From an uncultured Bacteroidales bacterium (GTDB taxonomy: Bacteria; Bacteroidota; Bacteroidia; Bacteroidales; UBA932), in contig ONTQ01000015.1 of NCBI GenBank assembly GCA_900320795.1, positions 1-33,694 on the forward strand: DNA of 33,694 bases, written 5' to 3'. The translations under genes and the position numbers were made by a program. Below the pieces are notes generated by a model, which was not told where the DNA came from, did no database searches, and saw only the letters and a program-made list of their open reading frames with translations. Position 1 is the stretch's first letter. The number at the start of each line of letters is the position of its first letter. Positions 1-16,662 of this stretch are shown piece after piece.

Positions 1-262
1 GGTTTAGGCTCTGCCCCTTTCGCTCGCCACTACTCAGGGTATCGACTTTTCTTTCTTTTCCTCCGGGTACTAAGATGTTTCAGTTCCCCGGGTTCGCCCA
101 CTCTCTCGAGTGTACTGGCTCTTCAAGCCAGTGGGTTGCCCCATTCAGAGATGCTCGGATCAATTCCTGTTTGCAGATCCCCGAGCCTTTTCGCAGCTTA
201 CCACGTCTTTCTTCGCCTCCGGATAGCCTAGGCATCCTCCGTTCGCTCTTCTTTCCTTTCTC
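1..262 (-). rRNA. rrl: 23S ribosomal RNA, 5' part (runs off the window)
   Basis: Read on the minus strand, this is the 5' domain of bacterial 23S rRNA. It contains the conserved blocks GGATGCCTAGGC, GAAGAAAGACGTGG, GAACTGAAACATCTTAGTACC and GTGGCGAGCGAAAGG in the right order and spacing. The 5' end near 262 is set by alignment from memory to the E. coli start, 32 bases before the end of the GGATGCC block, so it is good to a few bases. Only about the first 262 nt are present; the gene continues off the left edge. It is preceded by its own promoter and leader, not by a 16S gene. Confidence 0.95.
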
Positions 263-658: not shown

Positions 659-1879
659 TTACTCTGCGAACAGCGTAATGATGTTCAGGATGACTTCTGA
701 AGCCTTTTCAATGCTCTCCAGCGGAACAAATTCCATTTTACCATGGAAGTTCAGTCCGCCGGCGAAGATATTGGGGCAAGGAAGACCCTTGAAAGAGAGA
801 TTGGCCCCGTCGGTCCCGCCGCGGATGGGCTGAATCCGGGCCTTGATGCCGGCCATCTCCATGGCCTTCACCGCCTTCTCTATAATATGGTAGTGGGGCT
901 CCACCTGCTCGCGCATATTATAATATTGGTCTTTCACATCCAGTAAGACCGTTCCCTCGCCGTACTTGGTGTTCAGGAAAGACGCCACAAAGCCGATGAG
1001 TTTTTTCTTCTCCTCGAATTTGTCATGGTCATGGTCCCGGATAATATAGGCGAAATCGGCCTCCTCAACCGTTCCTTTGAAGGAAATGAGGTGGAAAAAG
1101 CCCTCGTAGCCTTCCGTGGATTCCGGACGCTGGCTCACGGGAAGCATGGCGTTGAATTCCTGGCCGATGAGGATGGCGTTGCGCATCTTTCCCTTGGCGC
1201 TCCCGGGGTGCACGTTGCGGCCCTGGATATGAATCTTGGCACTGGCGGCATTGAAGTTCTCAAACTCCAGTTCGCCAATCTCACCACCATCCATGGTGTA
1301 GGCGAAATGGGCCCCGAAACGCTTGACGTCGAATTTCACCACGCCCCGGCCGATTTCCTCGTCCGGCGTAAAGCCAATCTTCACCGGTCCATGCTTGAAT
1401 TCCGGATGCTCCACCATATACTGCACGGCGTTCATGATTTCCGCCACGCCGGCCTTGTCATCGGCCCCGAGAAGGGTGGTGCCGTCGGTGGTGATGAGGG
1501 TCTGTCCCACATAATGCAGCATTTCAGGAAAATCCTCCGGCTTCAGCTGCAGGCCGGGAACGCCCTTGAGGGCAATGGCGCCGCCGCCGTAATTCTCTAT
1601 GATTTGCGGCTTCACATCCTTGCCGGAGGCGTCCGGCGCCGTATCCACATGGGCGATAAAGCCCACGGCGGGCACTTCCCTGTCGATATTGGAAGGGATG
1701 GAAGCCATCACATAACCGTACTGATCCAGCGTCACTTCCACGCCCAGGGCGGCCAGTTCGTCCCGGAGCATTTTCAGAAGGTCCCACTCCTTGACGGCCG
1801 AAGGCTGTGTCTCGGACTCTTCGTTACTCTGCGTGTCCACCGACACGTACCGCAAAAATCTGTCTAATATCTTTTCCAT
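659..1879 (-). CDS. pepT: Tripeptide aminopeptidase PepT (M20B family)
   Basis: Peptidase T removes N-terminal residues from tripeptides in the cytoplasm. The 406-residue product fits the family (408 in E. coli). Metal ligands and catalytic residues are in place: H77 and D79 in GFIAHVDTAPDASG, D140 in LLGADDKAG, the E174/E175 pair in TPDEEIGRG, D197 in YTMDGGE, and the C-terminal histidine in GGLNFHGKMEF. The start is the ATG at 1879, which gives the conserved MEKILDRFLRYVSVDTQS. The frame stays open upstream, but that part only reads through the overlapping transporter gene. The A at 1879 is shared with the TAA of the transporter (TAATG), so the two genes are translationally coupled: peptide import then hydrolysis. 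It is the last gene of the operon; no clear terminator follows. Confidence 0.96.
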   Translation of the reverse strand: MEKILDRFLRYVSVDTQSNEESETQPSAVKEWDLLKMLRDELAALGVEVTLDQYGYVMASIPSNIDREVPAVGFIAHVDTAPDASGKDVKPQIIENYGGGAIALKGVPGLQLKPEDFPEMLHYVGQTLITTDGTTLLGADDKAGVAEIMNAVQYMVEHPEFKHGPVKIGFTPDEEIGRGVVKFDVKRFGAHFAYTMDGGEIGELEFENFNAASAKIHIQGRNVHPGSAKGKMRNAILIGQEFNAMLPVSQRPESTEGYEGFFHLISFKGTVEEADFAYIIRDHDHDKFEEKKKLIGFVASFLNTKYGEGTVLLDVKDQYYNMREQVEPHYHIIEKAVKAMEMAGIKARIQPIRGGTDGANLSFKGLPCPNIFAGGLNFHGKMEFVPLESIEKASEVILNIITLFAE

Positions 1880-3852
1880 TACTTTTTCTCGGTTTTCATT
1901 GAAGCATATACCATATAGCCGATGATGCACAGGAACGGGACGATGGCGACGGCCTCGCCGTAAGTGGCGGCCCATTCACTGAGATACAGGTCCACATTGG
2001 CAAACTTGAGGATGGCGCTCACCACGCCCATGAGGGCGCCGCCGGCGATGAAGCCGGAAGCGATGAGCGTGCCCTTTTCCTGGCGGGCGCTGTTCACGGC
2101 GGCGTCCTTGCTGCGGGTACTCACATACCAGGAAATGGCACCGCCCACCAGCAACGGAAGGTTCAGGTCGATGGGAATGAACATACCCAGGGCAAACGGC
2201 AGGGCAGGCACCTTGCCGAAATTGAGCACCAGGGCGATGGCCGCGCCGATTCCGTACAGCAGCCAGGGGGCGCCGCCGCCGGAGAACATGGGCTGGATTA
2301 CCGCCGCCATGGCATTGGCCTGCGGGGCTACCAGGGCGTTTTCGCCGGTGAAACCATAGGTCTTGTTAAGCACCAGCATTACGCCGCAGACCGTCACAGC
2401 GCTCACCGCTACGCCCAGGAATTTCCAGCCTTCCTGGACCTTGGGGGTAGAGCCGATCCAATAACCGATCTTCAAATCCGTGATGAAACTGCCGGCCACC
2501 GAAAGGGCCGTACATACGACGCCGCCGATAATGAGCGCCGCCGCCATGCCGGTATTCCCTTTAAGTCCCACTGCCACAAGTATTAACGAAGCGATGATGA
2601 GGGTCATCAGCGTCATGCCGCTCACGGGATTGGAGCCCACGATGGCAATGGCATTGGCCGCAACGGTGGTGAAAAGGAACGCGATTACCGCCACAATCAC
2701 CAGGCCGATAAGGGCCTGCCAGACATTGTTCACCACGCCGCCGAAGGCAAAGAAGGCAAAGACGCACAGCAGCGCAATCACCACGCCGAAGACAATGGTC
2801 TTCATGGGCAGATCCTCTTCCGTACGGAGCGGTTTCACCGCATCGGCCCCGGGTTTGCGTTTAAACTCGCTCACCGCCAGGCCGGCCGCACTCTTGATGA
2901 CGCCGAAACTCTTCACGATGCCGATAATGCCGGCCGTGGCAATGCCGCCGATGCCGATATGCCGGGCATAGTCCTTGAAAATCTGTTCCGGAGCCATCTC
3001 CCCGATGGTCTGCGTCACACCGGTGTGCATGAGGTCGATGACATCGGCCCCCCAGATGAGGTTCATCAGGGGAATGATGACCAGCCACACCAGCAAAGAA
3101 CCGCAGCAGATGATGAAGGAATACTTGAGGCCGATGATATAGCCAAGGCCCAGCACGGCTGCGCCGGTGTTCATCTTGAGGACGAGTTTGGCCTTGTCGG
3201 AGAGCGCTGCACCCCAGCCCATCACCGTGGTGGAAACGGTTTCGGCCCAGGTCCCGAAGGTGGCCACGGCGAAATCGTACAGACCGCCGATGAGGCCCGC
3301 CGTGATGAGGGTCTTGGCACTGGAGCCGCCGCCTTCACCGCTGATGAGGACCTGCGTGGTGGCCGTTGCTTCCGGGAAAGGATACTTCCCGTGCATCTCC
3401 TTCACGAAATACTTGCGGAAGGGAATCAGGAAGAGGATTCCCAGCACGCCGCCCAGCAGCGAACTCAGGACCATCTGCCAGAAACCCACCTCCACGCCCA
3501 GGATATAGATGGCCGGGAGGGTAAAAATGGCACCGGCCACCACAGCGCCGCTGCAGCCGCCGATACTCTGGATAATCACATTCTGCGGAAGCCCCTGTCT
3601 GAGGCCCAGAGCCCCTGTCAGACCCACGGCAATAATGGCGATGGGAATGGCCGCCTCGAACACCTGGCCCACTTTCAGGCCCAGGTAAGCCGCCGCCGCG
3701 CTGAACAGGATTACCATCAAAATGCCAACGGCCACCGAATAAGGGGTGGCCTCGGCATATTTTTTCTGCGGGTCGAGGATGGGTTTGTATTCCTCTCCCG
3801 GCTTGAGTTCCCGATGTGCGTTTTCCGGGAGACTCACCTGCTGCTTGTCCAT
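1879..3852 (-). CDS. OPT-family oligopeptide transporter
   Basis: This 657-residue polytopic inner-membrane protein belongs to the OPT/YSL oligopeptide transporter superfamily, proton-coupled importers of small peptides (some members move metal chelates). A short hydrophilic N-terminus is followed from about residue 38 by roughly 14-16 hydrophobic segments. The conserved loop GKYPFPEATATTQVLISGEGG lies near residue 155, typical of bacterial OPT proteins. Glycine-rich helices such as GLRQGLPQNVIIQSIGGCSG are also family-like. The start ATG overlaps the STAS stop by one base, and its stop overlaps pepT by one base. Placement directly before pepT supports peptides as substrate. The substrate itself is not provable from sequence. 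Confidence 0.92.
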   Translation of the reverse strand: MDKQQVSLPENAHRELKPGEEYKPILDPQKKYAEATPYSVAVGILMVILFSAAAAYLGLKVGQVFEAAIPIAIIAVGLTGALGLRQGLPQNVIIQSIGGCSGAVVAGAIFTLPAIYILGVEVGFWQMVLSSLLGGVLGILFLIPFRKYFVKEMHGKYPFPEATATTQVLISGEGGGSSAKTLITAGLIGGLYDFAVATFGTWAETVSTTVMGWGAALSDKAKLVLKMNTGAAVLGLGYIIGLKYSFIICCGSLLVWLVIIPLMNLIWGADVIDLMHTGVTQTIGEMAPEQIFKDYARHIGIGGIATAGIIGIVKSFGVIKSAAGLAVSEFKRKPGADAVKPLRTEEDLPMKTIVFGVVIALLCVFAFFAFGGVVNNVWQALIGLVIVAVIAFLFTTVAANAIAIVGSNPVSGMTLMTLIIASLILVAVGLKGNTGMAAALIIGGVVCTALSVAGSFITDLKIGYWIGSTPKVQEGWKFLGVAVSAVTVCGVMLVLNKTYGFTGENALVAPQANAMAAVIQPMFSGGGAPWLLYGIGAAIALVLNFGKVPALPFALGMFIPIDLNLPLLVGGAISWYVSTRSKDAAVNSARQEKGTLIASGFIAGGALMGVVSAILKFANVDLYLSEWAATYGEAVAIVPFLCIIGYMVYASMKTEKK

Positions 3853-4160
3853 TAGCTCTCCTGAATCTCGAACAGGTTCAGGAAACCTGTCATCATGAAC
3901 ACCTGACGGATTTCGTTGTTGATGTCACGCACGATTACCTTGCCGCCCTTGGCGGCGGCGGCTTTGCGCACGGTGAGGAAGATACGGAGCCCGGAACTGG
4001 AAATGTAGGCCAGTTCCTTACAGTCCAGGACAACCGTCTTGTCTGCGTTGTCAATGACGGGCTGAAGTTCAGTGGCGACCTGCTGGGAAACGGCAGTGTC
4101 CAGACGACCGATAAGCTGAGCGGTCATCACATTGTCTTTTTCAGTAATCTTTACTTCCAT
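3852..4160 (-). CDS. STAS-domain anti-anti-sigma factor (SpoIIAA/RsbV-like)
   Basis: A single STAS domain of 102 residues. Antagonists of this type bind an RsbW/SpoIIAB-type kinase and are switched off by phosphorylation of a serine and on again by a PP2C phosphatase. The phosphorylation loop is visible as LDCKELAYISSSGLRIF, with the target serine in the SSSG segment. Two starts are possible: a TTG at 4172 inside the upstream gene, and the ATG at 4160 four bases after that gene's stop. I chose the ATG because it gives the usual MEVKITEK-type first strand. Kinase and phosphatase are both in the fused protein encoded just upstream, so the whole switch is in two adjacent genes. Confidence 0.9.
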   Translation of the reverse strand: MEVKITEKDNVMTAQLIGRLDTAVSQQVATELQPVIDNADKTVVLDCKELAYISSSGLRIFLTVRKAAAAKGGKVIVRDINNEIRQVFMMTGFLNLFEIQES

Positions 4161-4164
4161 AAGT

Positions 4165-6255
4165 TTATGCAATTTTTTTTATCATCGAAAGAATATTCTT
4201 ACCGTCATCGGAACGGGTGTATTCCACCACGTCCATGATGTTTTTTACCAGGAAAATGCCCAGTCCGCCGATGGGACGCTCTTCTGCGTCCAGGGTGATA
4301 TCGGCCTCCGGAGCGGCGGTGGGATCAAAAGGCGTGCCGTTGTCGGAGATGATGAACTCGAGCTCTTTCTTGCGGATGATGGCCTCGATGTCCACCAGCC
4401 CGTCGGAGCCCTTCGGATAGGCATACATAATCACGTTGGAAACTGCCTCTTCCAAAGCCAGGTTCAGGCTCATGGTAAGGCCGACATCCAGATGGGCCAC
4501 ATCGGCCACGGCTTCTACAAATTCGGCCAGTTGCGGAATCTGCTGGATGTCATTGTGGAGGATGAGATGACGCTCGGTCTCCTCCGAAATCTGGTTATTC
4601 ATAAAGCGGATATATAACATGGTGAGGTCGTCGCTTTGGGGCGCGTCACCCACAAAGCCCTGCACGGCCTGTGACACTGTATCAATCTGCTGGTGCGAGC
4701 CCAGTTCTGCGCTGAGGGCTGCGAACATGCGCTCGTCGCCAAACAATTCATGGTTACTGTTTTCGGCTTCGGTAAGGCCGTCCGTGTACAGGAAGAGGCC
4801 GGTACCGGTAGTGAGGTCAGTTTCCTGCTCGGTGAAGGACATGCCCGGAATCACGCCCAGCGGAAGATTGGCTTCCACGGGGAGACTGCGGTTCCCTTCC
4901 GCCGTTACCAGTACAGGAGCGTTGTGACCCGCGTTGCAGTAACGCAGGTGGCCGTTTCTGAGGTCCAGCACGCCGCAGAAGAAAGTAACGAACATATTGG
5001 CCTCGTTCATCTCGGCCATGCTGTCATTGATAGTGGTCACTATGCGCTGCGGACTCTTTTCATGGGCCGATACCGTACGGAAGAGGCTTCGCGTGACGGC
5101 CATCACCAGGGAGGCGGGCACGCCCTTTCCGCTCACGTCACCGATGCAGAAGAAGAGTTTCTCCTCGCGGGTGTAGAAGTCATACAGGTCTCCACCCACT
5201 TCCTTGGCCGGCACCACGGCAGCAAACATATCCACATCCCCGCGTTCCGGATAAGGCGGGAAACTCTTGGGAATCATGGACATCTGGATACCGCGGGCCA
5301 CCTGCAGTTCGCCTTCGATACGGCTCTTGTTCTGACTCACCGACTGGAATTTCTTCTGGTTGTTCATCGTGATGTACAGGATGACGATGAGGAACACGAC
5401 GCCCAGAATTTGCAGGAACAGGACCATGAGTTCCAAACGGTGCAGGTGCTCGAAGATATCATCTTCCGGAATGGTGAGGGACATCTTCCAGCCCGTTCCT
5501 TCCAGCGGAGCCTGGTATTTGAGGGCCTTATCCACCGCAAGCGTCTCCGGCGGCATGGCGATAAGCTGCCCCTTCCGGCTCACGATGGTACCGAAGGCCC
5601 GTTCATAGGGTTTGATCTGCGCCACCACCTCGGTCAGCCAGTTCAGGGTGATATCCAGTCCCAGGACACCCACGGTTTTTCCTTCGTGGTCCTTGAAGGG
5701 GACGGCAAAAGTGACCACCATCATGGAAAGGGCGTCGTCAAGATAGGGCTCACTCCAATAACCCTTTCCCGTCTCTATGACAGACTTGTACCATTCGGCG
5801 GAAAAGTAGTCGTGGGTTTCCGAACCAATCTGAAGACGCTCGTATGTGTTTCCGCTGATGCGGGACAGCACAGGCTCGTACCATCGGCCGAACTGGGGAT
5901 AATAATTGGGCTCAAAGGCGATGAAACTGTTCATGATGACGGGCGTAACGTCCATGATACGCTGCATCTCATCCAGATATATCTCCGGCTTATCGACATA
6001 ATCCTCCAGCATCCAGGCCAGGGCATAGGCCGATCCCTCGATGGTGAGGGTGGTCTTCTCCGTCGTGAGGCGGGCCACCTGCATCTCGGAGGCAGCCCGG
6101 TTATCGGCCTCTTCACGGATAGCCTTCCTGGAAAAATAATACTGCAGAAGGCCGGTGGCTTCCAGGGCAATGACAGCAGCGAGAATGATCAGCAAGCCCT
6201 GCCTGGCCGCCACGCGGTCAAAAGAGTCTTTAATGATTTTGTTCGTCCTTGTCAT
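4165..6255 (-). CDS. Membrane sensor: Cache domain, SpoIIE-type PP2C phosphatase and RsbW-like kinase in one chain
   Basis: This 696-residue protein has five parts. TM1 is at about 20-40. A periplasmic Cache-like sensor spans 45-272 (with YWSEPYLDD and GVLGLDITLNWL). TM2 is at 276-296, followed by a coiled-coil linker (QVARGIQMSMIPKSFP). The SpoIIE/RsbU PP2C domain covers 340-552, with metal-binding aspartates in EVGGDLYDF (D355), CIGDVSGKG (D373), LYTDG (D492) and QSDDLT (D542/D543). A GHKL ATPase of the RsbW/SpoIIAB type fills 565-692, with N-box EEAVSNVIMYAY, D638 in SDNGTPFDP and the glycine lid GGLGIFLVKN. The chain therefore carries both the phosphatase that activates a STAS antagonist and the kinase that inactivates it. 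Its start touches the stop of the upstream kinase gene, and the STAS gene follows. The sigma factor or other final target is not encoded here. Confidence 0.92.
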   Translation of the reverse strand: MTRTNKIIKDSFDRVAARQGLLIILAAVIALEATGLLQYYFSRKAIREEADNRAASEMQVARLTTEKTTLTIEGSAYALAWMLEDYVDKPEIYLDEMQRIMDVTPVIMNSFIAFEPNYYPQFGRWYEPVLSRISGNTYERLQIGSETHDYFSAEWYKSVIETGKGYWSEPYLDDALSMMVVTFAVPFKDHEGKTVGVLGLDITLNWLTEVVAQIKPYERAFGTIVSRKGQLIAMPPETLAVDKALKYQAPLEGTGWKMSLTIPEDDIFEHLHRLELMVLFLQILGVVFLIVILYITMNNQKKFQSVSQNKSRIEGELQVARGIQMSMIPKSFPPYPERGDVDMFAAVVPAKEVGGDLYDFYTREEKLFFCIGDVSGKGVPASLVMAVTRSLFRTVSAHEKSPQRIVTTINDSMAEMNEANMFVTFFCGVLDLRNGHLRYCNAGHNAPVLVTAEGNRSLPVEANLPLGVIPGMSFTEQETDLTTGTGLFLYTDGLTEAENSNHELFGDERMFAALSAELGSHQQIDTVSQAVQGFVGDAPQSDDLTMLYIRFMNNQISEETERHLILHNDIQQIPQLAEFVEAVADVAHLDVGLTMSLNLALEEAVSNVIMYAYPKGSDGLVDIEAIIRKKELEFIISDNGTPFDPTAAPEADITLDAEERPIGGLGIFLVKNIMDVVEYTRSDDGKNILSMIKKIA

Positions 6256-7083
6256 TTAGATAATTCCTTTAAGGCAGGCCCGCATTCCGGGCATGGGGCA
6301 TTTGGTGTCCCGTTCAACGATAAGGGTCTTGAGACCTGCGAAGGGGCGGATCTCCTCTTCAATGTCCTTCAAAGGCCGATCGGCCCCGAAGTAAACGGGC
6401 GCGAATTCTTCCCAGAACCTGACGGCCAGCGGTTTGGGCATATGGAAAAACTCCTCGATGAAGGCGGCGTCGCTGATGCAGCAGCACAGATAGACCATGC
6501 CTACATCGAACAGGGGATATCCGTAACAAAAATCTCCGAGGTCAATGAAATAGCGCTTGTCTCCGACAAAAATGGCGTTGGAGAACTGGAGGTCTCCGTG
6601 GATGGCGGTATCCGTTTCGGGACAATCGGCGATGAAACGGGAGATGGCGTCCTTCTCTCCCTTGGTAAAGAAGGGATTCTCTTCCAGAAGGCGGCCGTAA
6701 CGGTCTTTCACATTTTCAAAGTCCGCGGTGTTCACATGGATTTTGTGAAGGCCGATGCACATCTGCGCGAACTCCCCGGCATATTGGGCCACTTTTTCGG
6801 GATGGTCCGCGGTGGCGCGGGAATAGGAGACCTTGCCTTCGATACGGCGGAAACGGAGGCCATAGCGCACCCCGTCCGTCACATATTCTCCGGGCTCCGG
6901 GGAAGGGATGCCCAGGTCATAGACTTTCCGGGCCATCAGCATCTCGTCCAACGGCTGCTTCACCTTGCCCGGGTTGTAGAGTTTCATCATGACGGAAGGG
7001 TCTGTCCGGTGGAAAAAACTTTCTCCGTTGGCCCCTTCGCCGGAATGGACATAGTCGTCCAGGTTGATTCGGATGGCTTCCAT
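6256..7083 (-). CDS. APH/choline-kinase-fold phosphotransferase
   Basis: A 275-residue protein with the aminoglycoside phosphotransferase/choline kinase fold. The candidate ATP lysine is K34 in VMMKLYN. The catalytic loop is AIHGDLQFSNAIFVG (H162, D164, N169) and the metal-binding motif is YFIDLGDF (D181, D184). The substrate is unknown. The family includes small-molecule kinases and, less often, protein kinases, so an antibiotic-resistance role should not be assumed. The start at 7083 lies one base after the stop of the alarmone hydrolase gene (TAGCATG); the frame is open upstream only inside that gene. Its position between alarmone genes and a partner-switching module suggests a regulatory or starvation role, which is inference. 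Confidence 0.75.
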   Translation of the reverse strand: MEAIRINLDDYVHSGEGANGESFFHRTDPSVMMKLYNPGKVKQPLDEMLMARKVYDLGIPSPEPGEYVTDGVRYGLRFRRIEGKVSYSRATADHPEKVAQYAGEFAQMCIGLHKIHVNTADFENVKDRYGRLLEENPFFTKGEKDAISRFIADCPETDTAIHGDLQFSNAIFVGDKRYFIDLGDFCYGYPLFDVGMVYLCCCISDAAFIEEFFHMPKPLAVRFWEEFAPVYFGADRPLKDIEEEIRPFAGLKTLIVERDTKCPMPGMRACLKGII

Positions 7084-7084
7084 G

Positions 7085-7663
7085 CTATTTGTCAAATACT
7101 TGATTGATAAGGGATACGAACTCCTTGTAGGCAAACGTGTCCTTGAGTTCGCTCAGAGAAGCGGCCAGGCCGCGATAGTGCCACTCATGGTCCTTAGGAT
7201 CCTTGGCGTGAAAGATTTTCCAGAGGTCGTCACCCTTGACAGCATAGTCCCGGGCGATAGCGCGCATGTTTGAGAGTTTGTCCCCCATGGCCACGATTTT
7301 GGCATCGTGCGGGGCCTTGGCCAGGCGGTCGATGGCCGCCTTCTTGCGGGCATGCCAACTGTCCTCTTCACTCACACCCTCCACGAAGACATCGCTCTCC
7401 GCGACCACGAGGTCTGCGATACGGTCTCCGAATTCGCGGCGGATTTCATCGGCCGATATTTCCGTGTCCTCCACGACGTCGTGAAGGGCGGCGGCGGCCA
7501 GCAGCTCCTGGTCGGGCGTGATGGTGGCCACAATTTCCATGGCCTCCATGGGATGGACGATGTAGGGGAAACCCTTTCCGCGGCGCTCCGTGCCGGCGTG
7601 GGCTTTGACCGCAAAGAGGATGGCGCGGTCCAGAAGGGCTGTGTCGAGTGGTTTGTTAGCCAT
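7085..7663 (-). CDS. Small alarmone hydrolase (MESH1-like HD domain)
   Basis: A stand-alone HD-domain protein of 192 residues, matching MESH1/SAH enzymes that remove the 3'-pyrophosphate from (p)ppGpp. The Mn-binding set is H37 (PYIVHPMEA), H61 and D62 (AALHDVVEDTE) and D128 (GDKLSNMRAI), nearly the same positions as in human MESH1. E65/D66 and N132 are also conserved. There is no synthetase, TGS or ACT domain. It follows the synthetase gene by four bases, so the two form a synthesis/hydrolysis pair. In some toxin-antitoxin systems a SAH neutralises a toxic synthetase; whether that applies here is open. Confidence 0.87.
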   Translation of the reverse strand: MANKPLDTALLDRAILFAVKAHAGTERRGKGFPYIVHPMEAMEIVATITPDQELLAAAALHDVVEDTEISADEIRREFGDRIADLVVAESDVFVEGVSEEDSWHARKKAAIDRLAKAPHDAKIVAMGDKLSNMRAIARDYAVKGDDLWKIFHAKDPKDHEWHYRGLAASLSELKDTFAYKEFVSLINQVFDK

Positions 7664-7667
7664 ATTG

Positions 7668-8735
7668 CTATTTATTCATGAAGGGTAAATCTTTGGTTTC
7701 CTCCAGGAGGAATTCGGCCATCATCATGTTGCTGTCCGATTCCCCGTTGAGTTCGTCAAAAAGGTATTTAAGGCCCACTTTCCCGGCGCCGGAGCGAAGG
7801 ATATAGGCGATGCAGAGGTCCTGCGGGCCCACGGAGGAGGAGATGATGTCCAGGTCGGTGAGGCCCATCTGGTAGCAGGCCAGCTGGTAGGCAGCTTCGG
7901 AGTGTTCTTTGATAATGTGGTCGATGTCTCCCAAGGTCTTGCAGTTCAAGCGTTTGAACACAGAAAGGTAGTTCATCAGGTTCACCTCCTGAATCTCGGC
8001 CTGGTTCACGGCGGCGATGCGCTTGTTCAGGCTGTCGAAAGGCCCCAGGGAAAGATAGCTGCGGAACGTGTCGCCGTCCAGGGGAACCTCGGCCAGGTTG
8101 CCGGAGGCCACGAGCGCCTGCACGCGGCGGCGATAGTCCGTAAGTTCGTTGCGGATGCGGGAGAACTGCTCGTCGGCCAGTTCCAGCATGCCGGCCAGGC
8201 GGTTGAGGTTTCGCAGGTATTCGCGGGGCACTTCCACGCCGGATTTGTAACCGGTGTCGTGGTTCATATTGGCCCAGGCGTGCTGCAGGACGGTGCGCAT
8301 CTGGATCTCGAAACGGTACGGGAAGCCCTCCATGGAGCAGATGTAATGCAGGGACATGTAGCCGAAACTGTCAATCTCATGCAACTTGCGCTTGTCCACG
8401 GAGTTTTCCCAGTCCACGTCGAAGAGACGGTCCACGGCCGATGCCACTTTGTCCACGTCGTCACTGTAGAAGGTGATGACGCGGAGTCCCAGGATGTCGG
8501 TAATATCGGCCAGGGTGGCATATTTGGCGCCCTTCAGTTCCAGTTTTCCAGCCAGGGATTTTTCGGTCTTGACACGATATTCAATGGAAGCTACGATGAG
8601 GCCGGCATCCTCGAATACCTTCTTCAGTTTGCCATACACCTTCTCTCCGACCACCTGGAATTCCGGGAGGTGCTCCCGATATTCTTCCAGGATTGCTTCA
8701 CAGTGAGCGTCCAACTGATAATTGTTTTGCGACAT
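7668..8735 (-). CDS. RelA/SpoT-domain alarmone synthetase with C-terminal extension
   Basis: A 355-residue protein with a RelA/SpoT nucleotidyltransferase domain at about 25-175. Catalytic features are intact: R54/K56 in IEYRVKTEKSLAGKL, the acidic DITDILGLRVI segment (D77, D80, R85), GYMSLHY (Y126), and FEIQMRTVLQHAWA (E143, Q145, R147, H152). There is no HD hydrolase domain and no TGS/ACT domain, so this is a small alarmone synthetase. Residues about 175-355 form a helical extension that I do not recognise and that is longer than in RelQ/RelP types. It is the first gene of a seven-gene operon, transcribed from a promoter just upstream and divergent to tRNA-Gln. Alternative: a toxSAS that modifies tRNA. 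Confidence 0.88.
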   Translation of the reverse strand: MSQNNYQLDAHCEAILEEYREHLPEFQVVGEKVYGKLKKVFEDAGLIVASIEYRVKTEKSLAGKLELKGAKYATLADITDILGLRVITFYSDDVDKVASAVDRLFDVDWENSVDKRKLHEIDSFGYMSLHYICSMEGFPYRFEIQMRTVLQHAWANMNHDTGYKSGVEVPREYLRNLNRLAGMLELADEQFSRIRNELTDYRRRVQALVASGNLAEVPLDGDTFRSYLSLGPFDSLNKRIAAVNQAEIQEVNLMNYLSVFKRLNCKTLGDIDHIIKEHSEAAYQLACYQMGLTDLDIISSSVGPQDLCIAYILRSGAGKVGLKYLFDELNGESDSNMMMAEFLLEETKDLPFMNK

Positions 8736-8756: not shown

Positions 8757-8788
8757 CAAAAATAATAAAATTTTCGAAGAAACCCTTG
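8757..8788 (-). promoter_or_regulatory. Promoter of the alarmone/partner-switch operon
   Basis: On the minus strand TATTTTTG at 8764-8757 matches the -7 consensus TAnnTTTG. The -33 region (about 8788-8784) has only a weak TTTC-like match. The likely transcript start lies near 8750, leaving a leader of about 15-20 nt before the ATG at 8735. It shares the gap with the divergent tRNA-Gln promoter. Confidence 0.6.
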
Positions 8789-8837: not shown

Positions 8838-8911
8838 TGAGATATGGTGTAATGGTAGCACTACAGATTCTGGCTCTGTCAGTGAGGGTTCGAGTCCTTC
8901 TATCTCAACCA
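8838..8911 (+). tRNA. tRNA-Gln (anticodon CTG)
   Basis: A full cloverleaf folds by eye. The acceptor is TGAGATA/TATCTCA, the D-stem GTGT/GCAC, the anticodon stem ACAGA/TCTGT with loop TTCTGGC (anticodon CTG, reading CAG), and the T-stem GAGGG/CCTTC with loop TTCGAGT. The discriminator is A at 8908 and CCA is encoded at 8909-8911. Confidence 0.96.
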
Positions 8912-8943
8912 AAAATCAGCCTCACAAAAGCTGATTTTTATTT
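8911..8943 (+). terminator. Intrinsic terminator after tRNA-Gln
   Basis: AAAAATCAGC (8911-8920) pairs with GCTGATTTTT (8930-8939) around a 9-nt loop, followed by a T-rich tail. The bidirectional A/T arms make it a clear Rho-independent terminator. It separates the two tRNA genes, which therefore need not be co-transcribed. Confidence 0.85.
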
Positions 8944-8958
8944 TGAAAACACGGTGAT

Positions 8959-9032
8959 GGCGGGGTAGCTCAGCTGGTTAGAGCGTCGGATTCATAATCC
9001 GGAGGTCGTGGGATCGTGACCCACTCCCGCTA
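8959..9032 (+). tRNA. tRNA-Met (anticodon CAT), elongator-like, with unusual T-loop
   Basis: The cloverleaf has acceptor GGCGGGG/TCCCGCT (G1-U72 wobble), D-stem GCTC/GAGC, anticodon stem TCGGA/TCCGG with loop TTCATAA (anticodon CAT), T-stem GTGGG/CCCAC and discriminator A. No CCA is encoded. The T-loop is ATCGTGA rather than the near-universal TTCRANN, so positions 54 and 58 are A and T instead of T and A. The GGCGGGGTAGCTCAGCTGGTTAGAGCG start resembles Bacteroidota elongator tRNA-Met. A tRNA-Ile2 with modified CAT is less likely. No clear promoter is seen between the preceding terminator and this gene. Confidence 0.88.
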
Positions 9033-9097
9033 CAAAACATCACATATAAGTCTTGGTTCGACTACGATCAACCTCACAGACTAAACTCTCTATATAC

Positions 9098-9125: not shown

Positions 9126-9163
9126 GTTTATATGGGGTGGATTGAATACAATCACGCCCCAAA

Positions 9164-9423
9164 TTGCCCCGCGGTGAACCCAATGACCGCCCTCCAGGGG
9201 CAAAAACGGCCCAATCTGCCCCGCGGTGGACCCAACGACCGCTCCCCAGGGGCAAAAACGCCCCAATTTGCCCCGCGGTGGGCCCAAAGACCGCCCTCCA
9301 GGGGCAAAAACGGCCCGAATTGCCCCGCGATGAACCCAATGACCGCTCCCCAGGGGCAAAAACGGCCCAATCTGCCCCGCGGTGGCCACAATGACTGCAC
9401 TCCAGGGGCAAAAACGGCCCAAT
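9164..9423. repeat. Tandem array of five 52-bp hairpin-forming units
   Basis: Five direct repeats with an exact 52-bp period: the GCCCCGCG cores start at 9166, 9218, 9270, 9322 and 9374. A degenerate partial unit lies just before (from about 9155). Each unit has an outer inverted repeat TTGCCCC/GGGGCAA and, in most copies, an inner GCGGT/ACCGC. Each can thus fold into a hairpin with a bulged CCTCCA or TCCCCA, and units are joined by AAACGGCCCAA. Copies differ by substitutions only, with no indels. Because 52 is not a multiple of three, the repeat reads through all frames and is very unlikely to be coding, although frames on both strands stay open. There are no unique spacers, so it is not a CRISPR array. 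The surrounding stretch 9126-9163 and 9424-9468 shows nothing else. Confidence 0.9.
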
Positions 9424-12941: not shown

Positions 12942-14186
12942 CTATTTTTCAATGAGCTTTCCTGTCAGATACAGGAGAGAGGCTACGACCATACCGTTGA
13001 TGGCCGGGAAGCCCCAGTGCAGCAGGTTGGCCACGACGGCACCGGCCACCACACCGGCCACGGCCCACCAGTTGACCTTCTTCAGGGGCTGCGTCATGAA
13101 ATCCTTCTTGCCGAAGAAATAACTGATGATAATGATGATGCCCACCGGCGGCAGCGTGCAGTTGAGAACGTTGAGCCAGCCGCAGAAATTCCAGTAGAGC
13201 CAGACGGCGGCCAGCGTGCCGATGATGCCGGATACGATGACCATGCTCTTCTTGGAGCATCCCGTAATGTTGGAAAGACCCAGGCCTGCGGTATAGAGAG
13301 CGTTGTCATTGGTGGTCCAGATGTTCAAACCCAGGACCAGGACAGCCGTATAGAAAAGGTTAAGGTTGAGCATCACCTCGAAGATGTCGTTTCCACCGGC
13401 ATAGATGCTGGAAACGGCGCCGAACAGGAACATCAGGCTGTTACCCAGGAAGAAAGCGATGACCGTGGTGATCAGTCCCACCTTTCCGCTCTTGGCAAAG
13501 CGCGTGAAGTTGGGCGTAGCCGTTCCGCCGGAAACGAAACTGCCCACTACCAGGCCGGCTCCCGCAATGATTCCCAGGTCTTTGCTGCCCACAGCGAACT
13601 GCTCGACGAGGCCCAGGTCTCCCCTTCTGACAGCCAGGATCATGGCGACAGTTCCCAGGATGGCAACGGCGGGGACGGCGATGTAACTGATAATCGTAAG
13701 ACTCTTGATGCCAAAGTAAGCGCTGGCCGTCATCAGGATACCGGCGATGGCCACCAGGAGGTAACCCTGCCAGGGCATGGAGTCAGGCGTAACCTCCAGA
13801 CCCAGCAGTTCCTTTGCCACCGGAATGGCGAACATCGCAAGGCCCACGCCGAACCAACCGATCTGCGTAAAGCTGATCATGGCACTGGGGAGGTAACTGC
13901 CTTTGGTTCCGAAACTGCGCTGCGCAAGCATGTCCAGCGTGAGACCTGTCTTGGCGCCAATGTAACCGAGAGATCCGGTATAGGCGGCGAGGATGAGGCC
14001 GCCGAGGATCAGCGCCCACACAAAGCCGGAGAAATTGAGCCCGGCGGCGAGCTGCTGGCCGACCCACATGCTGGCCGAGAAGAAGGTGAAGCCCAGCATC
14101 ACCATGAACATGCTGAGCGCCGATTTGCGACCTGCCTGATCGACAGGGGTGTTCGCGTAGTCTACATCAAAAGCTTTTTTTGCCAT
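12942..14186 (-). CDS. codB: Cytosine permease-like NCS1 transporter
   Basis: This 414-residue polytopic protein of about 12 TM segments is close in length to E. coli CodB (419). Family features include the TM1 region SMFMVMLGFTFFSASMWVGQQL, GSLGYIGAKTGLTLDMLAQRSFG, and the ligand-binding helix segments GWFGVGLAMFAIP and NIWTTNDNALYTAGLGLSN. It should import cytosine or a related nucleobase by sodium or proton symport. It is the second gene of a two-gene operon, six bases after the PRTase-fold gene. No cytosine deaminase gene is in the window. The exact base transported is inferred from family resemblance. Confidence 0.85.
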   Translation of the reverse strand: MAKKAFDVDYANTPVDQAGRKSALSMFMVMLGFTFFSASMWVGQQLAAGLNFSGFVWALILGGLILAAYTGSLGYIGAKTGLTLDMLAQRSFGTKGSYLPSAMISFTQIGWFGVGLAMFAIPVAKELLGLEVTPDSMPWQGYLLVAIAGILMTASAYFGIKSLTIISYIAVPAVAILGTVAMILAVRRGDLGLVEQFAVGSKDLGIIAGAGLVVGSFVSGGTATPNFTRFAKSGKVGLITTVIAFFLGNSLMFLFGAVSSIYAGGNDIFEVMLNLNLFYTAVLVLGLNIWTTNDNALYTAGLGLSNITGCSKKSMVIVSGIIGTLAAVWLYWNFCGWLNVLNCTLPPVGIIIIISYFFGKKDFMTQPLKKVNWWAVAGVVAGAVVANLLHWGFPAINGMVVASLLYLTGKLIEK

Positions 14187-14192
14187 ATCGTT

Positions 14193-15242
14193 TTATAAAT
14201 AGAGTTTTTTCAGAGAATCGATACTCGCAAGCCTTCTTTCGGCCACGGCCTTCAGGTCGAGGCCGTCCGCAGCGGAAAGCAGCGCCTGCTCTTTTTCCCA
14301 CAGCCCCTGCCATCCGTCCGGTGCCCGCGTCACCTTTTGCCAGTCTTCGTAGGATAAGGGTTCCGGGTAGCCGAGTTTTTCGCCCACAAGGGCCTTCGGG
14401 TCAATTCTGTCGGCCCGTTCCAGAATGCCTTCCCAATATTCTGAGACTTCCTCCAGGTGAAGGGGAATCTCATAACGGCGGGCGCCGCCGTCGTAGATGA
14501 TGCATTTTTCCAGCAGGGCATCCGGCGTTTCCATCACCCTGGCGCGGAATTCCGGCGCCACGAAACCGCCCTTCCAGCCAAAATCGATGTCCGGCACATT
14601 GATGCCGCTCACACCCGGGTCTTTATATACCGTGAACGCCCCTTCATAGAAGAAACAGTCGAATCCCTCGAATCCGGGGAAAAGCTCCTGCATGACGGGC
14701 AGCAGTTCATCCATCATTTCAATGGCCTTGGTCCCGCCGATGGTGAAAAAAATCATCCTGCGGAGACTGCCGCCCTGGCGTTTGAATTCCTTCAGCGCAT
14801 AATCCAGGCACTTGCGGAGCGTCGCCCCGGAGGCGATGATGTCTCCGATGGCCAGCACCCGCCCGGGTGTGGGACGGAGTTTTTCGTAGCGGATATCCAG
14901 GCCGGTGATGACATGGTCTTTGATGATTCGTTCGCAGGAGAGGAAATGCATGTCGCGGACCCGGATTCCCGCCCGGGCGCAAGCCTCCTCCAGCGGGTAA
15001 TTGAGCCCGCCGCGAAGGATGGTGAGAATATCCAAATCGCCGCCCAATCCGATTGACGACAGATAACGGAGGGCGGCGACAGTTTCTTCTAAAAGGGCTG
15101 AATAACAAGGGAAACCAACGACTTCAGGACGGGCGAGAAGTTCTCTGGATCCGGGACCCGAAAGAATGAAAAAGCGATTATTGGAACAGGACGTACCCAA
15201 CTTGTACAGGCTCGTTTCCTGTAGAGATGCAATCTTTTGCAT
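14193..15242 (-). CDS. Phosphoribosyltransferase-fold protein of unknown substrate
   Basis: A 349-residue protein with a type I PRTase core. LTILRGGLNYPLEEA forms the pyrophosphate loop and RVLAIGDIIASGATLRKCLDYAL is the PRPP-binding loop, where a G precedes the single acidic residue instead of the usual acidic pair. The C-terminal 170 residues form an extension I do not recognise (VSGINVPDIDFGWKGG and a helical tail). It is the first gene before a CodB-like permease, which points to nucleobase salvage. The promoter is excellent and the 5' leader is only a hairpin plus three bases before the ATG. The substrate is not assignable. A regulatory, non-catalytic PRTase relative is possible. Confidence 0.72.
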   Translation of the reverse strand: MQKIASLQETSLYKLGTSCSNNRFFILSGPGSRELLARPEVVGFPCYSALLEETVAALRYLSSIGLGGDLDILTILRGGLNYPLEEACARAGIRVRDMHFLSCERIIKDHVITGLDIRYEKLRPTPGRVLAIGDIIASGATLRKCLDYALKEFKRQGGSLRRMIFFTIGGTKAIEMMDELLPVMQELFPGFEGFDCFFYEGAFTVYKDPGVSGINVPDIDFGWKGGFVAPEFRARVMETPDALLEKCIIYDGGARRYEIPLHLEEVSEYWEGILERADRIDPKALVGEKLGYPEPLSYEDWQKVTRAPDGWQGLWEKEQALLSAADGLDLKAVAERRLASIDSLKKLYL

Positions 15243-15245
15243 AAA

Positions 15246-15300
15246 CCCGATTAAGATTTAACCGGGATGCAAAGTTAGAAAAAAACCATGATGATGCAAA
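15246..15300 (-). promoter_or_regulatory. Promoter and 5'-terminal hairpin of the PRTase-codB operon
   Basis: On the minus strand TTTG (15300-15297), 19 bases, then TAACTTTG (15277-15270) is a perfect promoter. CA and a T follow, then a 9-bp hairpin CCCGGTTAA-ATC-TTAATCGGG (15266-15246, one G-U pair), and the ATG starts three bases later at 15242. The 5' end of the mRNA would be almost entirely this stem-loop, so it could control access to the start codon. Confidence 0.78.
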
Positions 15301-15312
15301 ATTATCTTTGGA

Positions 15313-16662
15313 CTACAGCTCGAAAGCCAAGCCCAGGGTCACTGCTTTGTTATTGGCTTTCAGCGGTGTGCTGGTGTAAGGAATCGTTCCGCCGAAACCG
15401 TCGCTGTAACCGAGGGTCAGGCGGAATTTCCAAATGGCCGCATTCACGGCAGCGCCCCATACGGGACCATAGGTTCCGACACCGCCATTGGCCGTGATAC
15501 CCAGCCACTTCCAAGGATTCCAGGCCAGGACACCGCGACCCTCGGCATAGGAAAAGCCCTTCACATGGAGGTAATTCCCGCTTGCGCCGATGGAAAGGGC
15601 CCGATAGAAGGGCAGGTCGTAACGGATGCCCCCATTCACATGGAAGGGAACGAATTCCCAGGCCGTCCGGCCTTTCAGTTCCTTCATCTTGAGGGAAGAT
15701 CCCAGGGCGGCCAGCTCATCGTCGAACTGACTCTTGATGGAGCCATTCCTAATCTCATCAATGGACAGGCTGTCCATCCCGGTGAATTCGACGCTGCCCT
15801 GTGACCGGCCGGCATTGCCATAGTACCAGAACATGCCTCCCAAATCCAGGAGGGAGGCCGACAAGGTCAGTCCTTCCACGGGGGTGAGGACCACGCCCAG
15901 ATCCAGGGCCAGACCCACGCCGGAAGGCAGTTTCCAGCGGTCCTTACTGCTGAGTTTGGACAAGTCCAGATAGCCCTCCTCGTTGGGACGGATCTTGCTC
16001 CAGCGGCTGGTGAGGTCCAGTTCGGCCTCCAGGTCCAGCCGGTATTTGTCATCGGCCATGTAAATGTCCATGCGGGAGACATTATATTTGAGGGCATTGA
16101 TACCCACCAGCAGTTTGGCCCGTGCGCCCAGGGAAACCCAGTCGGCCAGCTTATGCGAATATCCGTAAGCCAGTTCCACCAAAGCGTTTCCGCCCAGGCT
16201 CAACCCTCCCATGTCATAGTTGGTGTCGCCCGTACCCAATTTGAGAATGGCAAAAATGTCCTTGGGGATATTGGCCGAATAGGCCATGCGGACATTGGCT
16301 TCCAGCGTCTGGTAAGCGACACCTTTGCGCCATCCAAAAGAAAAGAGATTGTAATTGAGGCTGCCGCCCAGCGTGTTGTCGTCTCCCAGGCTTCCCAGGA
16401 ATTCATCGGCCGATACGCTGGAATGAAGGGCGGTCACCACTTCGTTTCCGCGGGGATACAGGAAACTGGCCGCTCCGAAAGTATTGCGCGAGGAGCTTTC
16501 CAACTGCCCGATACTCAAGAAGTTGCTCTCATTTTGCAAGGCAGGATTGTATCGGTAGCCCAGCCGGTATCCGTCCAGGAAAAGGGCCGACTGAAAACTT
16601 TGTGCTTCAATTGAAACGGCGGTCAGCAGCATGGCTGCCAAAAAGATAAATGTCTTTTTCAT
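15313..16662 (-). CDS. Outer-membrane beta-barrel-like protein (DUF5723-like)
   Basis: This 449-residue exported protein has a signal peptide (MKKTFIFLAAMLLTAVSIEAQ). The body is rich in alternating aromatic and hydrophobic strands, ending in a terminal strand KAVTLGLAFEL with the C-terminal hydrophobic residue expected of an outer-membrane barrel. The early block LFLDGYRLGYRYNPALQ and the general layout fit the DUF5723 family of Bacteroidota, whose function is unknown. It follows a lipoprotein gene by six bases, so the two likely act together at the outer membrane. Confidence 0.72.
   Translation of the reverse strand: MKKTFIFLAAMLLTAVSIEAQSFQSALFLDGYRLGYRYNPALQNESNFLSIGQLESSSRNTFGAASFLYPRGNEVVTALHSSVSADEFLGSLGDDNTLGGSLNYNLFSFGWRKGVAYQTLEANVRMAYSANIPKDIFAILKLGTGDTNYDMGGLSLGGNALVELAYGYSHKLADWVSLGARAKLLVGINALKYNVSRMDIYMADDKYRLDLEAELDLTSRWSKIRPNEEGYLDLSKLSSKDRWKLPSGVGLALDLGVVLTPVEGLTLSASLLDLGGMFWYYGNAGRSQGSVEFTGMDSLSIDEIRNGSIKSQFDDELAALGSSLKMKELKGRTAWEFVPFHVNGGIRYDLPFYRALSIGASGNYLHVKGFSYAEGRGVLAWNPWKWLGITANGGVGTYGPVWGAAVNAAIWKFRLTLGYSDGFGGTIPYTSTPLKANNKAVTLGLAFEL

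Follow-up and report, generated by a model that had tools for sequence, protein, structure and literature searches.

In the SiaABCD system of Pseudomonas aeruginosa, the phosphorylation state of SiaC is determined by SiaA and SiaB, and phosphorylation keeps SiaC from binding, and thereby activating, the diguanylate cyclase SiaD (excerpts of PMC7647112 and PMC8457831). Diguanylate cyclases under partner switches are found in SiaABCD, BgrR/BgrV and HsbD/HsbA (excerpts of PMC8457831). Among the alarmone enzymes, the small alarmone synthetase Tde-SAS of Treponema denticola is restrained by its C-terminal domain (excerpts of PMC10434055; the words 'STAS' and 'operon' are absent from the main text of this paper). 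The locus analysed here, from an uncultured Bacteroidales bacterium, carries the genes of a partner switch and those of predicted alarmone enzymes in one putative operon. The window, i.e. the whole stretch of 33,694 nucleotides that was analysed, is an entire contig (G000:C107) of a genome assembly (G000) consisting of 266 contigs and 85% complete.

Genes of the operon and their products

The operon comprises seven open reading frames on the minus strand (window positions 659-8735), characterized by the ORF list and by Pfam and NCBIfam searches. In operon order, starting with the alarmone synthetase gene (RSH), the junctions measure 4, 1, 0, 4, -1 and -1 bases. A motif scan revealed a promoter-like TAnnTTTG box on the minus strand upstream of RSH (8757-8764), which we take to be the Bacteroidota -7 motif. 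The box was also present 5′ of RSH in 13 of the 19 relatives examined among 35 loci collected with the kinase as bait. A second minus-strand box within 659-8735 lies inside the phosphatase gene (5223-5230), and none was found on this strand ahead of the last two genes, OPT and PepT. In the sigma-70-type scan, terminator-like sites were not in excess of shuffled sequence. An earlier note on this DNA had described seven minus-strand genes with these families and junction lengths behind a single promoter; the genes, families and junctions are as it claimed, and the promoter claim agrees with the one promoter-like box before the first gene.

The first gene (7668-8735) encodes an RSH protein with a RelA_SpoT domain (approximately 8238-8576; PF04607, 6.6e-19) and a conserved helical C-terminal extension. 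In the Pfam search HD, TGS and ACT domains were absent from the same protein, as in small alarmone synthetases. The motifs whose residues we take to be catalytic are conserved among orthologs and relatives: E-x-Q-x-R and FGYxSLH in 71/71, RxK in 70/71. In the predicted model (pLDDT 82.4, pTM 0.46) the catalytic part is nearest in fold to Bacillus subtilis SAS1 and RelP (RelQ/RelP-type), and residues ~170-355 are mainly helical. Past residue 166 the protein has no Pfam match, and the pTM of the model makes the placing of the extension unsure. With these features, (p)ppGpp or else a related nucleotide is the predicted product of RSH. A role as replacement of the housekeeping stringent response was rejected: RelA_SpoT and HD_4 matches occur together in each of two other long frames (758 and 704 aa).

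The second gene (7085-7663) codes for a MESH1-like HD-domain protein (HD_4, PF13328, 2e-19). It is a stand-alone HD domain with the HD..ED and GDK..N motifs of small alarmone hydrolases, and its relatives in the PDB comprise small alarmone hydrolases and the hydrolase domains of Rel. HD..ED was found in 67 of 68 relatives, the single miss being a truncated ORF, and DK[LVM].N in 66/68, the remaining two (L119 and L120) having GDKYSN. The product of the third gene (6256-7083) is an APH-fold kinase (PF01636, 5e-17), TIGR02172-like with a score of 212.9 bits, slightly under the 228.2 cutoff. A PDB search at 0.001 returned no protein related to it in sequence; its predicted model (pLDDT 95.2) adopts the APH/choline kinase fold with a TM of ~0.5. 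The kinase motif HGD....N is present in 66/66 proteins. The D.GD pattern was unmatched in 11/66, mainly in HD-APH fusions, and those passed a looser pattern. In these fusions, which occur in other loci, the kinase is joined to the C-terminus of the hydrolase, which suggests that the two proteins act together.

The fourth gene (4165-6255) encodes a fusion of a Cache sensor (PF22673), a SpoIIE/PP2C phosphatase (PF07228, ~4603-5166) and an RsbW-type HATPase (PF13581, HATPase_c_2, ~4177-4554). It is followed by a gene (3852-4160) for a STAS antagonist (PF01740, TIGR00377) with the phosphorylatable-serine motif ISSSGLR. A SpoIIE phosphatase, a HATPase kinase and a STAS protein with the serine, all recognizable in the sequence, make up the composition of an RsbU/V/W partner switch. 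ISSSGLR occurs in 48/63 and TSSQGLR in 15/63 of the STAS proteins, and SS(S/Q)G in 63/63. We take the serine of this motif to align with Ser58 of SpoIIAA; with one or the other motif in all 63 proteins, the position remains serine throughout. The E..N box of the HATPase was found in 62/62. The GGD..D pattern of the phosphatase was missed in 9/64 ORFs (L062, L065-L068, L163, L164, L167 and a fragment in L060), which may reflect a diverged metal site or a mere pattern miss. Loss of catalytic residues was considered and rejected, since alignment and wider patterns recovered the STAS serine (63/63), the RSH ExQxR (71/71) and the HATPase E..N (62/62).

The genome has one PF01740 match and one PF13581 match above cutoff, both in this operon, two further PF13581 matches below cutoff and six PF07228 SpoIIE phosphatases; the genome being incomplete, these are minimum counts. 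In one relative (L180, 10313-11617) an RsbW-type HATPase is fused with a diacylglycerol-kinase-like domain (DAGK-type lipid kinase), and L181-L183 have HATPase-matching ORFs of similar length.

The last two genes encode an OPT-family oligopeptide transporter (1879-3852; PF03169, 3.7e-107; TIGR00733) and a PepT tripeptide aminopeptidase (659-1879; PRK05469, 1.9e-186), which we classify as local accessories.

Beyond PepT the window contains the 5′ end of a 23S rRNA gene (1-262, minus strand), with no 16S match between them and a TAnnTTTG box at 490-497. A 23S 5′ end follows PepT in the same way in L046 (16777-17524) and L037 (9566-10036), and linkage between 16S and 23S may be absent here. On the other side, tRNA-Gln(CTG) and tRNA-Met(CAT) genes (8838-9033, plus strand) are divergent from the operon. 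Two tRNA matches with equal scores precede RSH in L037, L042, L046, L051 and L069; L055 and L045 have a single match, or a single match plus a truncated one, and L038 has none. Between the tRNAs and a GNAT gene lies a tandem array of 5.2 copies of a 52-bp unit (9154-9423). At 12942-15242 (minus strand) a cytosine/purine permease gene adjoins an ORF of 349 aa that matched no Pfam family.

Conservation and distribution of the core

Gene order was mapped with window-derived profiles in 74 loci: the 35 kinase-bait loci (L037-L071), 8 loci from RSH searches of the order and the phylum, and 31 from family samples. The kinase-bait relatives belong to Bacteroidales or Bacteroidia and many are of rumen origin; as the kinase was the bait, its presence in them is biased. 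RSH was found in 71 of the 74 loci, L049, L061 and L070 being without it in the stretch covered. Removal of a duplicate (L164, whose RSH is the same as that of L068) and of a weak relative (L193) left 69 non-redundant RSH loci. Seven of 15 stretches, with weaker RSH relatives (L121-L127), were left out of the map, and no other core gene was found in them.

Six domains constitute the core: RSH, the HD hydrolase, the APH-fold kinase, the Cache-SpoIIE phosphatase, the RsbW-type HATPase and STAS. Flanks of 6 kb or more on both sides were available for 46 of the non-redundant RSH loci; in these, co-directional partners within 6 kb were HD in 46, APH in 42, Cache in 40, PP2C in 41, HATPase in 40, STAS in 39, OPT in 8 and PepT in 3. 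Without the flank filter, thus with losses at contig ends included, the numbers for all 69 loci were HD 66, APH 62, Cache 58, PP2C 59, HATPase 59, STAS 61, OPT 17 and PepT 7. The synteny of the seven families, which the earlier note proposed to check, is therefore kept in Bacteroidales for the six-domain core, not for OPT and PepT; synthesis and hydrolysis genes, kinase and complete partner switch do form one conserved unit. That the six domains also work as one functional unit is very probable.

The order RSH-HD-APH-[Cache.PP2C.HATP]-STAS prevails in the window's family and recurs in a single f2 locus (L113). Family f81 has HATP-[Cache.PP2C]-STAS-RSH-[HD.APH], a single f79 locus (L118) has [Cache.PP2C]-HATP-STAS-RSH-[HD.APH], a single f41 locus (L114) has [Cache.PP2C.HATP]-STAS-RSH-APH-HD, and L180, L181 and L183 of genus g361 have RSH-[HD.APH]-HATP-[Cache.PP2C]-STAS. 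There are thus at least five gene orders across five families, with the HATPase fused or separate, and in three of the five STAS is the immediate neighbour of RSH.

Trees of RSH (28 loci), HD (27) and STAS (27), built for chosen loci, resolve the same two module types. In the STAS tree, which is unrooted and has long branches, types I and II lie on either side of a branch with 95/88 support, with lone switches on both sides. The HATPase tree likewise separates type I from type II with lone switches among them. The STAS tree suggests, as far as its unsure rooting allows, that the two module types may have recruited the switch independently. Two separate recruitments by RSH, if true, would strengthen the functional link.

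The input domain behaves differently from the other parts of the core. In 18 near relatives having all parts, mean identity to the window was 80% for RSH, 87% for HD, 80% for APH, 71% for PP2C, 74% for HATPase and 83% for STAS, with 88% for OPT and 87% for PepT, and 37% (range 32-83) for Cache. Judged by these identities, the Cache domain appears to have been swapped or to evolve far faster than the other parts, which makes a single invariable ligand improbable.

An RSH alignment search of the order yielded matches at 1e-10 in 20/393 genomes, nine of them full length with E < 1e-140 and representing six families. Switch genes adjoin RSH in five of the six, three of these five being known from one locus each or few. 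In the phylum sample 15/296 genomes matched, full length only in the window's own genome. RSH was found in 12/31 genomes of family f81 at 1e-40 (one weak) and in 23/149 genomes of the window's family. Within the samples taken (order, phylum and two families) the module is patchy and confined to the order. In the family sample, a strong SpoIIE match (E<1e-25) was counted by hand in 23/23 RSH-positive vs 27/126 RSH-negative genomes (Fisher p 1.7e-13, kinship among genomes ignored). Also by hand count, 17/23 RSH-positive genomes have one small STAS (frame <200 aa) and 6/23 have two; the single STAS maps to the RSH locus in 15 of the 17, and one of these 15 is encoded on the opposite strand.

Candidate target of the partner switch

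The earlier note had placed the final target of the switch outside the window, which may still be so. By analogy with SiaABCD we propose that the STAS protein regulates an alarmone synthetase, and the preferred candidate for the target of the switch is the synthetase of the same operon. Families, motifs, linkage and sensor divergence were computed; from them we infer the enzymatic activities, the phospho-cycle and the STAS-synthetase binding of the following scheme. A ligand at the Cache domain would alter the activity of the SpoIIE phosphatase, which would dephosphorylate STAS, the RsbW-like HATPase acting as the opposing STAS kinase. The synthetase would be bound, and its activity set, by STAS in one of its forms, most likely the one without phosphate, perhaps through contact with the conserved C-terminal helical extension of RSH. 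The HD hydrolase would reset the alarmone pool, and OPT and PepT would be a lineage-specific payload tied to the signal by co-expression. We give this whole mechanism, a receptor-controlled alarmone module, an even chance of being right.

A more far-reaching version is tentative, and we lean somewhat to the side of doubt. It holds that the switch directly controls the synthetase, a transmembrane receptor setting (p)ppGpp or a related nucleotide via STAS phosphorylation, that many interchangeable Cache-phosphatase receptors converge on one STAS, and that the RSH core acquired the switch at least twice. Stringent-response enzymes are mostly regarded as answering intracellular cues; judging from these sequences, a signal from outside may directly set the messenger level in gut and rumen Bacteroidales. 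If true, alarmones, here under a membrane receptor, would join sigma factors and c-di-GMP among the outputs of partner switching. The setting is largely uncultured gut and rumen bacteria, and the mechanism is biochemically testable with a few purified proteins.

Several observations count against the receptor-controlled module. RSH-HD loci L119 and L120 have no switch nearby and are flanked by other genes, L182 and L188 have no STAS nearby, and in genome G865 the switch (L224) is on a different contig from RSH-HD-APH (L171). Eight of the nine phosphatases without GGD..D sit in otherwise intact modules. Related switches, moreover, are present at loci that lack RSH.

In an alternative reading the switch targets something elsewhere, such as a transcription factor, a sigma factor or a membrane protein, with the alarmone genes as co-regulated neighbours acting in parallel. 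In classical partner switches the final target is a sigma factor (excerpts of PMC7522486), RSH-HD occurs without a switch in L119 and L120, and Cache-PP2C/HATPase/STAS sets occur at loci without RSH, from which it follows that related switches have other outputs and that the switch is a reusable cassette. Seven of these lone sets adjoin a gene for an NMT1/THI5-like binding protein (L211, L212, L214, L215, L218, L220, L222) and perhaps represent a second receptor system; six of the seven genomes are RSH-negative, and G844 (L211) has RSH elsewhere. The six SpoIIE proteins per one STAS in the window's genome are also compatible with a general hub. However, no sigma factor family was matched by Pfam among the seven proteins of the operon, and the set survives at least five rearrangements over five families. 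We regard a target elsewhere as rather unlikely.

A toxSAS-type pair, in which RSH would be a toxic synthetase and HD the hydrolase acting as its antitoxin, with release governed by the sensor genes, is improbable. ToxSAS enzymes occur in toxin-antitoxin modules, genomes with toxic synthetases often carry hydrolases for self-resistance (excerpted literature), and there was a partial PADLOC match to PDC-S33 (4.6e-14). Against this, the solved sequence relatives nearest to RSH in the PDB search are RelQ/RelP-type (9e-18 to 1e-15), with CapRel at 6e-4, the pair is stably co-located with kinase and switch, and L059 has RSH without an adjacent HD ORF.

Equally improbable is the unit envisaged in the earlier note, a starvation response complete in itself whose sensor and alarmone would govern the scavenging of peptides: seven tightly packed genes do stand behind one promoter-like box, in an order and direction kept in 6/35 kinase-bait loci (L037, L038, L045, L046, L055, L069) and, up to the contig end, in L043, but the remaining near relatives that possess PepT and/or OPT have them inverted or in another order. 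OPT adjoins RSH in 20/71 and PepT in 19/71 loci, all near relatives from the kinase-bait set, and neither was found beside RSH in the more distant of the 71 loci. In L069 OPT and PepT share one 1058-aa open frame (13318-16494), which could reflect either fused genes or a mistake of the assembly.

At other loci the core is accompanied by different transporters or enzymes: a Na+/H+ exchanger (L056, L224), a nucleobase permease (L180, L182), an MFS (L184) or a Na/Pi transporter (L116), and in L119 an amino-acid ABC transporter and adenine deaminase. Directly ahead of RSH is a cytidylate-kinase-like gene in L065 and L167, and a deaminase-like amidohydrolase gene precedes it in L180 and L181; this link to nucleotide enzymes is only a hint. 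Apparently unrelated genes ahead of RSH encode a serpin (L168), DUF5723 (L176), a lysine-decarboxylase-like (L166), a ClpX-like (L063) and a DUF1232 protein (L184). Such varied neighbours argue against peptide use as the general output. Peptide import and cleavage, which the earlier note took as part of the unit, turned out to be a local addition and not a conserved theme; as core output, peptide scavenging was ruled out by synteny (co-directional OPT 17/69, PepT 7/69).

Comparison with known systems

Our literature searches returned no paper combining a partner switch with these alarmone enzymes, the nearest topics being sigma-factor, SiaABC, mycobacterial and general ones; this statement holds for those searches only. 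Like RelQ and RelP, RSH has the synthetase fold and motifs; unlike them, it has an extra conserved C-terminal region past approximately residue 200, and against the NCBIfam YjbM model it scored 51 bits, far under the 320-bit cutoff. The locus resembles Tde-SAS/Tde-SAH (DsRel, ActSpo2) in having a stand-alone synthetase with a C-terminal extension and a separate hydrolase. The extension of Tde-SAS is a TPR (both points from excerpts of PMC10434055), whereas no TPR, the mark of DsRel (SAS-TPR), was matched in RSH by Pfam at 0.001.

Like RsbU/RsbV/RsbW and SpoIIE/SpoIIAA/SpoIIAB, the operon encodes a SpoIIE-type phosphatase, a HATPase kinase and a STAS antagonist with a conserved serine. It differs from these systems in that there is no sigma factor among its genes, that phosphatase and kinase are fused in the window, and that alarmone enzymes are part of the operon.

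The likeness to SiaABCD (excerpts of PMC7647112 and PMC8457831) is that a membrane PP2C phosphatase and a kinase set a STAS-like protein, which controls a nucleotide second-messenger synthetase, here as a proposal. The differences are in the parts: an alarmone synthetase instead of a diguanylate cyclase, a PF01740 STAS instead of the DUF1987 SiaC, and a kinase of RsbW type. Neither DUF1987 SiaC nor GGDEF SiaD was matched among the seven proteins (Pfam, NCBIfam), and the SpoIIE domain scored 51 bits (8.7e-14) against the SiaA model, far under the 700-bit cutoff. Beyond SiaABCD, the locus has a dedicated hydrolase and an APH-fold kinase. The parts, taken singly, all belong to familiar kinds; what is new is the variation of bringing alarmone enzymes together with a partner switch.
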